The notes beneath the pieces are model-generated. The model saw only the letters and a program-made list of their open reading frames with translations, was not told the origin of the DNA and ran no database searches. 64,000 nucleotides of DNA from Blastomonas sp. AAP53 (lineage in GTDB: Bacteria > Pseudomonadota > Alphaproteobacteria > Sphingomonadales > Sphingomonadaceae): NCBI RefSeq assembly GCF_000331245.1, contig NZ_ANFZ01000004.1:1-64000 (forward strand), in the 5' to 3' direction. The stretch's first letter is position 1, and each line of letters opens with the position of its first letter. This document shows positions 28,256 to 33,451 of this stretch, piece by piece. Made by a program: the position numbers and the translations under genes.

Positions 28256-28547
28256 ATACCGGTGATTTGACTATAGGGCAGGCCGTCCAAAGAGCCGTAG
28301 AGCTGGTGGACGGCAGGACGCAGGGCGAACAATCGCTCAAGTCTTAGATGTGTCGATCATCGTGAACATCGCCCGCGCCGATCACGGCCCGCGCGAGTGT
28401 TTGCGCTTTTCCCATATCCAGCTGCCGCCGTCAGAATGCACGCTTTTCGGGCGCTTTCCGGTGCATTCGGCTCGGGGGGCAGGTTGGGCCAAGACCGCCG
28501 GAGACAACCGGCTGGCCGGACAAAACAGTTTAAGGAATACAGGATTT

Positions 28548-30260
28548 ATGGCCTCTACGGCATTTCCCAGCCGCGATGATTTCGCAGCACTTCTCGACGA
28601 ATCACTGGGCGGCGGCGCTGCTACCGACGGTGGATTCGAAGGCCGCGTCGTCAAGGGCACGGTTACCGCAATTGAAAACGACAAGGCTGTCATCGACGTT
28701 GGCCTGAAGTCGGAAGGCCGCGTGGCACTGCGTGAATTCGCAGCGCCCGGCCAGGACCACGGCCTGAAGGTCGGTGACGAAGTCGAAGTCTATGTCGACC
28801 GCATCGAAAATGCCGATGGCGAAGCGATGCTGTCGCGCGACCGCGCACGCCGCGAAGCCGCATGGGACAAGCTGGAAAGCGAATTTGGCGAAGGCAAGCG
28901 CGTCGAAGGCGTGATCTTCGGTCGCGTCAAGGGCGGCTTCACCGTCGATCTCGACGGCGCCGTGGCCTTCCTTCCCGGCAGCCAGGTCGATATCCGCCCC
29001 GTGCGCGATGTCACCCCGCTGATGGACATTCCGCAGCCGTTCCAGATCCTCAAGATGGACCGTCGTCGCGGCAACATCGTTGTCTCGCGTCGCGCCGTTC
29101 TGGAAGAAACCCGCGCAGAACAGCGCACCGGCCTCATCCAGTCGCTGGCCGAAGGTCAGATCATCGACGGTATCGTCAAGAACATCACCGATTACGGTGC
29201 GTTCGTCGATCTGGGCGGCATCGATGGCCTGCTGCATGTCACCGACATCAGCTACAAGCGCATCAACCACCCCAGCGAAGCGATCACCATCGGTGAGACC
29301 GTCAAGGTGCAGATCATCCGCATCAACTCGGAAACGCAGCGTATCTCGCTGGGCATGAAGCAGCTCGAAAGCGATCCGTGGGAAGGCGCCAGCGTCAAGT
29401 ATCCCGTGGGTGCCAAGCTCACCGGCGCTGTCACCAACATCACCGAATATGGTGCGTTCGTCGAGCTGGAACCCGGCATCGAAGGCTTGGTGCACGTTTC
29501 GGAAATGTCGTGGACCAAGAAGAACGTCCACCCCGGCAAGATCGTTTCGACCAGCCAGGAAGTCGATGTCATCGTTCTGGAAGTCGATGCCGAAAAGCGT
29601 CGCATTTCGCTGGGCCTCAAGCAGGCACAGTCGAACCCCTGGGACGCCTTTGCAGACAAGCACCCCGTGGGCAGCGTCGTCGAAGGCGAAGTCAAGAACG
29701 CGACCGAATTCGGTCTGTTCATCGGCCTGGATGGCGACGTCGACGGCATGGTTCACATGTCGGACATCGCCTGGGGCATTTCGGGTGAAGACGCGCTCAA
29801 CCTCCACCTCAAGGGTGAGCAGGTCAAGGCGATCGTTCTGGACGTCGATGTCGAAAAGGAGCGTATCTCGCTCGGCATGAAGCAGCTGGAAAAGGGTGCC
29901 CCTGCCGTTGGCGGTTCGGACAGCTCGAACCTGCGCAAGAACGAAGTCGTCACCGTCACCGTGCTCGAAGTGCGCGACGGTGGTCTGGAAGTCCAGGTTG
30001 GCGAAGACGGAGCCACCGGCTTCATCAAGCGCAACGATCTGGGCCGCGATCGCGACGAACAGCGTCCCGACCGCTTCCAGGTTGGCCAGAAGCTCGATGC
30101 GATGGTCACCGGTTTCGATCGCTCGCGCAAGCCGACCTTCTCGGTCAAGGCCCATCAGCTGGCTGAAGAAAAGCAGGCTGTTGCTCAGTACGGTTCGTCC
30201 GACTCGGGTGCGTCGCTGGGCGACATCCTGGGTGCCGCGCTCAAGCAGCGCGAGGACTAA
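28548..30260 (+). CDS. rpsA: 30S ribosomal protein S1
   Basis: A 570-aa S1 protein with six S1 RNA-binding repeats, e.g. IIDGIVKNITDYGAFVDLGG and AKLTGAVTNITEYGAFVELE. It binds mRNA on the 30S subunit during initiation. MASTAFPSRDDF at 28548 is the standard start, with AAGGA upstream; the frame from 28350 adds 66 unrelated residues. The 290-bp leader (28256-28547) presumably holds its own promoter, since it is cut off from cmk by the glycosyltransferase operon; I see no gene in it. Confidence 0.97.
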   Translation: MASTAFPSRDDFAALLDESLGGGAATDGGFEGRVVKGTVTAIENDKAVIDVGLKSEGRVALREFAAPGQDHGLKVGDEVEVYVDRIENADGEAMLSRDRARREAAWDKLESEFGEGKRVEGVIFGRVKGGFTVDLDGAVAFLPGSQVDIRPVRDVTPLMDIPQPFQILKMDRRRGNIVVSRRAVLEETRAEQRTGLIQSLAEGQIIDGIVKNITDYGAFVDLGGIDGLLHVTDISYKRINHPSEAITIGETVKVQIIRINSETQRISLGMKQLESDPWEGASVKYPVGAKLTGAVTNITEYGAFVELEPGIEGLVHVSEMSWTKKNVHPGKIVSTSQEVDVIVLEVDAEKRRISLGLKQAQSNPWDAFADKHPVGSVVEGEVKNATEFGLFIGLDGDVDGMVHMSDIAWGISGEDALNLHLKGEQVKAIVLDVDVEKERISLGMKQLEKGAPAVGGSDSSNLRKNEVVTVTVLEVRDGGLEVQVGEDGATGFIKRNDLGRDRDEQRPDRFQVGQKLDAMVTGFDRSRKPTFSVKAHQLAEEKQAVAQYGSSDSGASLGDILGAALKQRED

Positions 30261-30581: not shown

Positions 30582-30863
30582 ATGATACGATCGGAGCTTC
30601 TGGAACATCTTGCGGACGAAAATCCGGAGCTGCGGCCTGAAGAAATCGAAAAGATCCTCGACATTTTCTTCCAGAATATCATCCAGCGCCTGTCGGAAGG
30701 TGGACGCGTCGAATTGCGCGGGTTTGGCGCATTTTCCACTCGCGCGCGCGAGCCGCGCAAGGGCCGCAACCCGCGCACCGGGGAAGCGGTGGACGTGCCC
30801 GCCAAGCGCGTGCCCTATTTCAAGCCAGGCAAGGAAATGCGCGCCAGGCTCAATACGGACTGA
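30582..30863 (+). CDS. ihfB: Integration host factor subunit beta
   Basis: DNA-bending nucleoid protein, 93 aa. It has the HU/IHF fold: [18 protein letters not shown], then the beta arm region [25 protein letters not shown] with the conserved Pro that intercalates. AGGAG precedes the ATG at 30582. Position after rpsA is the usual order in alphaproteobacteria. Confidence 0.95.
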
Positions 30864-30948
30864 CGCGACCGAAAGCGTCCAAATGCGCCGCAGTCGCGAT
30901 CGGGCTTGCCGCGCAATTCGTTCCCGGACTATAGACGCAGCCGTTCGT

Positions 30949-31257
30949 GCGGGCGTGGCGGAATGGTAGACGCAACGGACTTGAAGACAAACTGAGTGCA
31001 CGCGGAGAAATCTGCGCTGTAGAACTGCTCAAATTCGGGGAACCCTGTCAGATGGCAATCCCGAGCCAAGCCCGGTCGAACAGCCGGGAAGGTGTAGAGA
31101 CTAGACGGGCAGCACCTAAACCCTGCGTGATGCAGGGCAGGGTGAAGGGATAGTCCAGACCCCGAACGCTTCGGACGGAGCGGCGGCGAAAGCCGTAGCG
31201 GGTAAGAAAATCCGTCGGGCTTTGCCCGTGGGGGTTCGAGTCCCCCCGCCCGCACCA
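30949..31257 (+). tRNA. tRNA-Leu (UAA) interrupted by a group I intron
   Basis: Exon 1 is 30949-30982 (acceptor GCGGGCG, D-arm TGGCGGAATGGTAGACGC, anticodon stem ACGGA, then CTT). Exon 2 is 31207-31257 (AAAATCCGT, variable arm CGGGCTTTGCCCG, T-arm GGGGGTTCGAGTCCCCC, CGCCCGC, A73, encoded CCA). Joined, the anticodon loop is CT-TAA-AA, so anticodon UAA, in an 85-nt type II tRNA with leucine features. The long variable arm and A73 exclude serine. Without removing the intron the anticodon would read TGA. Confidence 0.93.
30983..31206 (+). other. Group I intron within tRNA-Leu(UAA)
   Basis: A 224-nt element without a reading frame. The 5' exon ends in U (CTT) and the intron ends in G (GGTAAG), as group I splicing requires. 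Core pieces are visible: a Q-like AATCCCGAGCC, an R-like GTGTAGAGACTAGACGGGC and an S-like GGGATAGTCC, in which AGACTA and TAGTC can form P7. A P1 pairing of ACTT (30979-30982) with GAGT (30994-30997) gives the U-G at the splice site. Size and core suggest the small subgroup found in tRNA genes (IC3-like; inference). Confidence 0.88.
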
Positions 31258-31298
31258 ACATCCCAGGCGGCTTTGCCCCCAGGCAGCTTCAATTAGCA

Positions 31299-33242
31299 TC
31301 AGGCGGCGCTGCGTTTGCCTGCGGAATGATCGTAGGAGCTAATGGCGCAGTTACGCCCGGCCGCCTTGGCCTGGTACAAGGCCTGGTCTGCCCGCGCGTA
31401 CAGTGCCTTTGCGGTATCACCCGGCCGCCATCCCGCCACGCCCAGGCTGGCGGTGATATCCAGCGCCAGATTGCCGTGCACATGGAAAGGCTGCTGCGCA
31501 ATCGCTGCGCGAACCCGTTCGGCAATGGCATCGGCGACTGCGGGGCGGGCGCGATCGAGGACGATCATGAACTCCTCGCCCCCCATCCGGCCCAGCGCGT
31601 CACCGGGTCGCAAAAGCGCCTGTACGCGAATGGCAAGGGCGCGCAGCGCATCGTCACCTGCGACATGGCCATAACGGTCGTTGATCGATTTGAAACTGTC
31701 GATATCGAGGATCAGTACCGCCAGCGCACTTGCCGGGCTCATCCGTTCGATGCGGCCTTCCAGTTCAGCCAGAATCTTGCGCCGGTTGGCGACGCCGGTA
31801 AGGCCGTCCAGCTCTGACAACAGCCTCAGTTTTTCATTGGCATCGTTGAGCGCGCGGGTGCGTTCTGCGACCCGTTCTTCCAGCTGGGAGTGCGATTGCC
31901 GAATGGCGCAGGCCATGGTCTCGAAGCGGCCAACCAGTTCGCTGACCTCATTGCCCCTGCGCGGGCCCTGGGGCAGTTCCAGCATCGATTCAGCCGCCAG
32001 GCCACGGGTGATGCGATTGGCATCGCGTGACAGGCGGCGCAGGGGCTTGGCCACCAGCTGGCGAAGCACCAGGGTCACGATCAGCAGGCAGATCGACAGC
32101 GCAATGACCGCCATCGCGGCAATCCGCGGGATCGGTCGCAGTGCTTCTTCAAGGATCAACTGTTGCGGCTTGACCGTCAGCGCATACCAGCCTGCTCCGG
32201 GGATCGGGCGCAGCGATACAAACGCTTCCAGCGCGGTTGCCTCGCCGGTGTAGCCTGTCTTGCCGTGTTTGCTGACCAGCTTCCACAAGGCGGCCAGCTC
32301 GGGCGTGTCGCTGGTGGTGATATCCAGATAGCCAGCGGTTTCCTGGCTGTGCTGCAGCGTGTAGCTGGGGTGATAGATCAGCCGGCCCTCGCGCGAGATG
32401 AGGATGACGTTTTCATCGACGGGTCCGGCAAAGCGGCCTGCTGGTGCAATCTGGTCAAGCGGTATCGAGGTGCCAAAGGTGCCTGCATGCATCCCGTCGC
32501 GATCGACGGGGGTCATGCACCCGGTTGTCCAAACCTCCTGATCCGCAAGCGAAATCAGCGATTGCAGCCCGGTGCACATCATCTTGCGCGCAGGGTTGGC
32601 GGGCAGCGTCGAGATGGTGGCAAATTCGCGGTCCTGGAAATCGAAATTCGCAGGCGCCGTCTTGCGATAGTATTCCAGCCGGTCGGCCCTGTCGGGCGCG
32701 AAGATCACGATGCCGTTGCGGGGCGTGAAATAATACAGGCTTTCCAGTTCGAAGCGGCTGCCTTCGCCCAGCCTGCGAACGGCATGAGTGGCAGCGACGA
32801 GATCGCGCACCGCCTCGTCATCGCGTTCGATCGCTGCGGGAATGAACCCAGCCATGCCCTGCGTCATGCCGATCGCCGATGGCCCGCCTTCAAACATCGC
32901 ATCGGTGCTGCGCCGTGTGCCGTCGCGATAGCGCGGATACAGCAGATCGAATTCGCGGCGGGCCTGCGCCGTCGACAGCGCTGCCCGCTCTGTCCGGAAC
33001 AGTGCGATCGCCTGGGTCTGGGTCTTGGCGATCCGGTCAAACTGGTCGGCGAGCTCTTCCACGACCTTCGCATTGCGCTGGTCCAGCCGCGCGAGCGATT
33101 CGTCGATGGCTATGGCATGTTCCTGCTCGAATGCGATCAGTGCCGTTGCAGCGATCACAAGCGTAAATCCGGCAGCGAGGCTCAGTGCGGTGCGCGTGCT
33201 GACCGATAACGTGCGAGACCAGGATGACAGGCGGGCGAGCAT
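31299..33242 (-). CDS. Membrane diguanylate cyclase with extracytoplasmic sensor and HAMP
   Basis: A 647-aa protein predicted to make c-di-GMP. TM1 is near residues 18-38; a large periplasmic, Cache-like sensor region follows to ~ residue 370; TM2 (AAMAVIALSICLLIVTLVL) comes next, then HAMP, a short coiled coil (HSQLEERVAERTRALNDANE) and GGDEF. The active site is GGEEF in RMGGEEFMIVL. An RxxD inhibitory site, RPGD, sits five residues before it, so product feedback is likely. The ATG at 33242 is preferred over 33290, which has no ribosome site. Its ligand is unknown. Confidence 0.93.
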   Translation of the reverse strand: MLARLSSWSRTLSVSTRTALSLAAGFTLVIAATALIAFEQEHAIAIDESLARLDQRNAKVVEELADQFDRIAKTQTQAIALFRTERAALSTAQARREFDLLYPRYRDGTRRSTDAMFEGGPSAIGMTQGMAGFIPAAIERDDEAVRDLVAATHAVRRLGEGSRFELESLYYFTPRNGIVIFAPDRADRLEYYRKTAPANFDFQDREFATISTLPANPARKMMCTGLQSLISLADQEVWTTGCMTPVDRDGMHAGTFGTSIPLDQIAPAGRFAGPVDENVILISREGRLIYHPSYTLQHSQETAGYLDITTSDTPELAALWKLVSKHGKTGYTGEATALEAFVSLRPIPGAGWYALTVKPQQLILEEALRPIPRIAAMAVIALSICLLIVTLVLRQLVAKPLRRLSRDANRITRGLAAESMLELPQGPRRGNEVSELVGRFETMACAIRQSHSQLEERVAERTRALNDANEKLRLLSELDGLTGVANRRKILAELEGRIERMSPASALAVLILDIDSFKSINDRYGHVAGDDALRALAIRVQALLRPGDALGRMGGEEFMIVLDRARPAVADAIAERVRAAIAQQPFHVHGNLALDITASLGVAGWRPGDTAKALYARADQALYQAKAAGRNCAISSYDHSAGKRSAA

Positions 33243-33451
33243 GGCGCCTTGTGCATGCTTTTGGTTAATTAACTGCAAATACAGACACATTGGTGGTCAA
33301 TTGCCGGTAATATCCTATCGTTGCGAGCAGGAACGGCCGATGTTCCGACGGCTGGCAACGGGTGTGATGCGGGTCATGGTTTGACCGGTCAAGTCGGCTA
33401 CGGTAGCATGTAACAGGGTCGTGAGCGGTTCCTGTATGGAGAGGCTTGGCG

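Follow-up and report, generated by a model that had tools for sequence, protein, structure and literature searches.

Agrobacterium and Azoarcus carry short group I introns in the anticodon loops of tRNA-Arg(CCU) and tRNA-Ile(CAU), and in cyanobacteria the tRNA-Leu(UAA) gene is interrupted by a group I intron between U34 and A35. A tRNA-Leu(UAA) intron of a deep-subsurface Pseudomonas, which Vepritskiy is said to have described in 2002, reportedly occupies the same site, is about 231 nt in length and has an 11-nt receptor motif in P8. The intron considered here lies in the tRNA-Leu(UAA) gene of the alphaproteobacterium Blastomonas sp. AAP53. It shares the gene, the U34/A35 site and the core elements with the cyanobacterial intron, as a preliminary description of this DNA had claimed for the insertion site, while the cyanobacterial introns sampled were 221 to 312 nt long, compared with 224 nt here, came from another host group and formed a separate cluster (100/100). 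The Pseudomonas intron comes from a gammaproteobacterial host. The tRNA-Arg(CCU) and tRNA-Ile(CAU) introns are similarly short, group I and located in the anticodon loop, but differ in host tRNA and insertion position. Introns of Ile2 tRNA are also named for Acidovorax and Burkholderia in one study (PMC8450103).

A group I intron splits the tRNA-Leu(UAA) gene of Blastomonas sp. AAP53

The DNA analysed was a stretch of 64,000 nucleotides, referred to as the window. When introns were allowed, ARAGORN, run on positions 30901-31320, recognised a tRNA-Leu(taa) gene on the forward strand (30949-31257) in which 224 nt of intron separate positions 34 and 35. The 5' exon (30949-30982, +) runs from the 5' strand of the acceptor stem to U34, as the sequence also reads, the intron occupies 30983-31206 (+), and the 3' exon (31207-31257, +) extends from A35 to the encoded CCA end, in agreement with the sequence and with comparison to an uninterrupted gene. 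The preliminary description had placed a group I intron after the first anticodon base at 30983-31206, and ARAGORN returned exactly these coordinates. The presence of the intron is confirmed by this call together with the Rfam Intron_gpI model and an alignment of 40 introns.

The Intron_gpI match covered 30973-31175 with a score of 49.0 bits (E 1.3e-11 for a 421-base stretch), and was the sole match in the whole assembly of 28 contigs and 3.6 Mb (E 2.6e-11). The match given by the covariance search that the preliminary description had proposed was significant, but its score fell 1 bit short of the gathering score of 50, so that default scans overlook the intron. The Rfam scan at the default gathering score reported nothing at the intron site, and ARAGORN without introns called no tRNA at 30949-31257. 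Default tRNA and Rfam settings thus conceal a tRNA gene that is very likely needed, and genomes of this kind consequently appear to be without a UUA-reading tRNA.

The gene is flanked upstream by a forward-strand gene for an HU/IHF-type DNA-binding protein, here called ihfB-like (30585-30860, +; Pfam PF00216), which served to locate the orthologous position in related genomes, and downstream by a gene for a GGDEF-domain protein on the opposite strand (31299-33290, -; Pfam PF00990). Among the named loci listed, the proteins around the intron had matches at E 1e-25 or better only on Sphingomonadales contigs; the protein encoded at 28350-30260 reads as a putative ribosomal protein S1, with a best neighbour identity of 83.5% (Sphingomonadales). 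These matches make Sphingomonadaceae the most likely family of the host. A homing endonuclease gene within the intron is ruled out by length, 224 nt being too short to hold one.

Predicted structure of the intron

The alignment consisted of 40 hand-selected tRNA-Leu(UAA) introns. They came from the same genus, the family and other alphaproteobacteria, except that one belongs to Bryobacterales and one to a proteobacterium whose class is not stated. When the alignment was scored against a P1-P9 structure with its P3/P7 pseudoknot, the 57 pairs (2279 cells) were standard pairs in 97.4% of cells, compared with 87.8% in shuffles. Changes on both sides were seen in 24 of the 57 pairs (16.4 in shuffles) and in 200 cells (55.2 in shuffles). 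The structure is far from chance, since the covariation score was equalled by none of 500 shuffles and displacement of the 3' partners by 1-3 columns lowered pairing from 97.4% to 28-46%.

All elements lie on the forward strand. P1 (30979-30997) is formed by exon ACUU at 30979-30982 and the internal guide GAGU at 30994-30997, and places a U.G wobble at the 5' splice site in 40/40 introns. P2 (31001-31016) is capped by a GAAA tetraloop at 31007-31010, and all six of its pairs showed both-side changes, with 96.3% of cells paired. P3 (31025-31112) joins 31025-31030 to 31107-31112, is pseudoknotted with P7, and was 100% paired with one pair showing both-side changes. P4 (31035-31040/31059-31064) encloses the two-pair P5 within 31035-31064; the P5 pair 77-103 switched from C-G to G-C in 7/40 introns, while P4 was invariant (100% paired) and is therefore uninformative for or against pairing. 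Within 31065-31093, P6 (31065-31067/31091-31093) was 100% paired and P6a (31071-31075/31084-31088) 91.5% paired with three covarying pairs.

P7, the guanosine-binding helix of group I introns, spans 31099-31155 and pairs GACUA at 31099-31103 with UAGUC at 31151-31155. It was 100% paired, and an A-U pair was replaced by G-C in 3/40 introns; the core elements had been described beforehand as able to form this helix, and the alignment bears this out. P8 (31113-31144) contains a CCUAAA...CAGGG internal loop, which we take to resemble the 11-nt receptor of a GAAA tetraloop; its pairs covary and lower P8 was 100% paired. The 3' domain (31159-31203) comprises P9.0 (31159-31161/31201-31203), P9a (31167-31172/31177-31182), which was the weakest helix at 87.9% paired, and P9 (31184-31187/31192-31195) with a GAAA loop. 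The intron ends in G at 31206, as first noted from the sequence, and this residue was G in all 40 introns. Both-side changes in P3, P7 and P8 thus accompany the P3-P8 core with its P3/P7 pseudoknot, and the splice-site wobble and terminal G are each universal in the alignment. With P2 and P9 each capped by a GAAA loop and with a receptor-like P8, the intron shows features of subgroup IC3, of which it may be a member.

A weak match to LOOT RNA (RF03000) was also found at 31113-31213, covering P8, P9 and the 3' exon and overlapping the P8 helix. Its score of 30.6 bits lies below the cut-off of 46.4, and membership in this family was rejected. The match runs through the CCUAAA hairpin and the GAAA hairpins of P8-P9, and is probably due to the CCUAAA/CAGGG hairpin of P8; a tetraloop-receptor-like hairpin is seemingly common to LOOT RNA and these introns and was judged to be a shared motif.

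Need for the gene and proposed splicing

Rfam matched 39 tRNAs in the assembly, of which nine are long-armed and alone long enough for leucine, and the Leu anticodons among these nine were CAA, TAG, CAG and GAG only. A second, intact tRNA-Leu(UAA), which according to the preliminary description would have made this copy dispensable, was not found in the 28-contig assembly, either by reading of the long-armed tRNAs or with an exact and one-mismatch pattern; the two one-mismatch matches to GGACTTAAAATCC were the CAA tRNA and an unrelated site. A redundant copy is rejected on the strength of this reading and pattern search. UUA codons are rare, yet present: a rough selection of 42 ORFs from the window has 11 of them among 1635 Leu codons. 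As the assembly gave no further tRNA-Leu(UAA), the split gene, and hence its splicing, is very likely needed by the cell.

By analogy with the known group I mechanism, the intron very probably splices itself out. The precursor tRNA would be transcribed whole, with the intron included, and the intron would fold into P1-P9 and bind guanosine at P7. Cleavage would then occur after U34, at the U.G wobble of P1, and the freed 5' exon would attack the 3' splice site behind the terminal G. Ligation of U34 to A35 would then yield an ordinary tRNA-Leu(UAA).

It could be that the intron has lost self-splicing, so that the gene is dead or a protein splicing factor is required. Such a loss would be compatible with an Intron_gpI score below the Rfam threshold, and at so low a frequency of UUA a poor tRNA might be tolerated. 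It is nevertheless most improbable, as the core helices are intact, with many covarying across the 40 introns, the exons make up a whole tRNA with the same sequence as the uninterrupted gene in a congeneric genome (G579), and the assembly yielded no other UAA tRNA. Overall, we conclude with considerable confidence that a group I ribozyme interrupts the only tRNA-Leu(UAA) found, and that it was probably inherited in most of the genus and is patchy and partly horizontal in its distribution beyond it.

Empty sites and descent within the genus

The ihfB-like neighbour was present in 30/30 family genomes searched, and ARAGORN called a tRNA downstream of it at 23 of these loci and none there at seven. 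In the same genus, a tRNA lay directly downstream of ihfB in all nine genomes, seven with the intron and two uninterrupted. The uninterrupted gene of G579 is identical to the joined exons of Blastomonas sp. AAP53 at 85/85 bases, and that of G157 at 82/85 bases. A tree of the surrounding genes (up to 11.5 kb, with outgroups represented by ihfB only) paired intron-bearing G583 with intronless G579 (SH-aLRT/bootstrap 98.8/98) and joined both with intronless G157 (100/100). This grouping requires two losses, or one loss and a regain, within the genus.

Six of the seven genus introns clustered together (bootstrap/SH-aLRT 96/85 in a tree of 153 introns and 91/51 in a second intron tree), and their order is close to that of the gene tree. 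The intron of G583 fell outside the other six in both of these larger trees, but a single genus clade was not rejected (p-AU 0.326). In a poorly supported ten-intron tree, two further sphingomonad introns even fell within the group of six, at support values no higher than 30. The 21 sphingomonad introns likewise did not form one group, and a one-group constraint was not rejected (p-AU 0.0995). The intron was probably inherited in most of its genus. In a brown alga, the homologous intron of the plastid is reported to have been lost precisely, with the tRNA-Leu gene otherwise intact (PMC2765969). With split and uninterrupted genes that have identical exons and the same neighbours, the genus offers a clean natural pair for study of the cost or benefit of a tRNA intron.

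Distribution in the family, the class and other bacteria

A pattern scan found split tRNA-Leu(UAA) genes in at least 19 of 199 family genomes, a lower bound because the pattern misses known cases and, within the genus, recovered 5 of 7. An intact gene was found in 173 of the same 199 genomes. Only G012 had both forms, the other 18 split genomes being without an intact copy; eight genomes matched neither pattern, and three of these (G027, G029 and G030) were uninterrupted by ARAGORN. Among named genomes with a split copy, 19/20 showed no intact copy, and the two forms are thus nearly mutually exclusive. Split and intact members occur side by side in genera such as g15, g50, g53 and g90. Matches to RF00028 were present in 18/199 family genomes, where 16 of 21 loci were tRNA-Leu(UAA), and in 31/385 genomes of the class, where at least 13 of the 29 loci examined were.

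Pattern scanning of named species genomes gave at least 119 loci, and a strict script parsed 96 as tRNA-Leu(UAA) introns. Those 96 listed were distributed over Pseudomonadota (66), Cyanobacteriota (18), Acidobacteriota (7), Planctomycetota (2) and others (3), proportions that are biased since the pattern had been tuned on proteobacterial introns. Introns of tRNA-Leu(UAA) had been thought rare outside cyanobacteria, a view that does not survive the count of at least 19/199 family genomes and, with the biased pattern, of 66 Pseudomonadota against 18 Cyanobacteriota among the loci listed. Related introns are widespread in alphaproteobacteria and occur also in Acidobacteriota, viral contigs and plasmids. 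The intron is accordingly less unusual for its host than first thought and of an already-known kind, and a presumed oddity becomes a widespread alphaproteobacterial feature with phage and plasmid carriers. A literature search by title and start of abstract, which left subscription journals mostly uncovered and so does not imply absence, returned no report of alphaproteobacterial tRNA-Leu(UAA) introns.

Two further kinds of group I match were observed. In G149 (L015:1482-1777), a group I intron lies inside the anticodon of a tRNA that ARAGORN called Thr(tgt) and that we read as Lys(UUU). In three genomes of one other family genus (L019, L020 and L021), there is an additional group I match of greater length, located outside any tRNA and perhaps within a gene for a phage-like protein.

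Relationship to cyanobacterial introns

The tree of 153 introns was built from the distinct members of 183 parsed introns, duplicates and repeat loci being left out. The cyanobacterial rows separated with 100/100 support and the AAP53 intron fell outside them, among Sphingomonadaceae introns. On the same side of this split were the sphingomonad and plasmid rows, every one of the 22 viral rows and the remaining proteobacterial rows with few exceptions. Inside, the tree was weak, with 36 of 150 inner branches starred and bootstrap not settled. A direct, recent transfer from cyanobacteria would account for the same gene, the same site and a similar core, but is given next to no credence in view of the separate cyanobacterial cluster, obtained in a sample without plastid introns. 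The preliminary description had left both transfer and independent insertion open; recent cyanobacterial origin of the AAP53 intron is now disfavoured, and beyond the genus either process could have operated.

One alphaproteobacterial tRNA-Leu(UAA) intron (L034:1475-1820) has a very long branch and was placed among the cyanobacterial rows. This placement may reflect transfer, contamination or a tree artefact, and it makes such transfer possible elsewhere.

Plasmid carriers and movement of whole loci

When plasmids were searched with the AAP53 intron, 1271 of 72,556 records gave matches at 60-80% identity. Near-identical split tRNA-Leu(UAA) genes were found in 635 of 5426 complete E. coli genomes, and 589 of the 670 places were on plasmids (e.g. 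L063:2964-3265); none of the 15 matches listed coincided with an annotated feature. In three of four E. coli and Acinetobacter regions that were read, the split tRNA lay within about 1 kb of aac(3)-IId; in the fourth it was followed by IS26 and macrolide-resistance genes. The split tRNA on the E. coli plasmids has probably spread as a passenger.

The introns nearest to that of the E. coli plasmids came from Bradyrhizobiaceae and Enterovirga, a sequence-level hint as to where the plasmid segment may have originated. A tRNA-Leu(taa) is also present on a conjugative Bradyrhizobium plasmid (L062:2966-3256), and its 204-nt intron shares 78.9% identity with that of AAP53.

Between an E. coli plasmid and a Bradyrhizobiaceae genome, the intron was identical at 95.3% of aligned bases and the exons at 85/86. 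As exons and intron are both near-identical, there is good evidence, from sequence comparison, that whole split tRNA loci can move between hosts. In the intron tree, this pair belongs to a group of 26 rows, mostly of the other exon type (GCAGACTT/AAAATCTGC), that spans several orders, and the flanks of 25 split-tRNA loci of the GCAGACTT type share some neighbours, none common to all. The wider patchy spread probably reflects loss on several occasions, combined with transfer either of introns or of complete split tRNA loci.

Alternatively, the lineages could have acquired the intron independently, with reverse splicing favouring the same tRNA site as its target, in place of shared descent and whole-locus transfer. 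Its patchiness even within genera, seen in its own genus (7/9) and in the mixed genera, would agree with this, as would introns with the same R element in other tRNAs; three loci (L035, L036 and L046) are tRNA-Arg(cct) introns that have the R element AAGGTGTAGAGACT of the tRNA-Leu(UAA) introns. We nonetheless regard independent insertion as rather unlikely, since the six genus introns roughly track gene relationships and since, in the GCAGACTT-type group, introns move along with their exons.

Viral contigs and phages

The pattern search of viral contigs gave 37 matches of the tRNA-Leu(UAA) type and at least 120 of the general type. ARAGORN, applied to 114 of 152 viral loci, gave 88 tRNA calls whose introns measure at least 150 nt, 46 of them named Leu(taa), its anticodon names for these loci being sometimes wrong; the strict script parsed 26 of the 152 as tRNA-Leu(UAA) introns. 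Among the viral loci L067-L180, many (e.g. L070, L126, L143 and L152) have tRNA genes with group I introns of about 200 nt, and some of these genes belong to arrays in which as many as 26 tRNAs were called. Seven of the viral contigs were checked by comparing ten of their proteins with PHROGs. L081 and L102 encode virion structural proteins, L087 encodes an integrase and L100 has families of unknown function, while the proteins of L070, L126 and L152 gave no match. According to a 2014 review, the phage introns known at that time are all in protein genes (PMC3984707).

One interpretation of these data is that split tRNA genes are a mobile unit, with phage tRNA arrays, plasmids and prophages that insert next to tRNA genes serving as a reservoir from which tRNA introns without an endonuclease would pass from one bacterial order to another by whole-locus replacement, the AAP53 intron being a resident descendant. 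We put this forward tentatively, as possible and somewhat doubtful. When three phage introns were ranked, their nearest introns were other phage introns, which so far speaks against a reservoir. The phage and plasmid copies are the stronger lead, their distribution is likely to be what a specialist would find most surprising, and it bears on how tRNA introns without a homing endonuclease move.

On a provirus-type contig (L087:1839-3531), an integrase gene (phrog_1) lies about 170 bases from an intron-bearing tRNA-Leu(UAA), which suggests that integration took place beside this gene. In Daredevil, a cultured Gordonia phage (L065:1389-1700), ARAGORN reads an unannotated tRNA as Lys(ttt) with a 238-nt intron, and this tRNA lies near the phage's integrase and an HNH gene.
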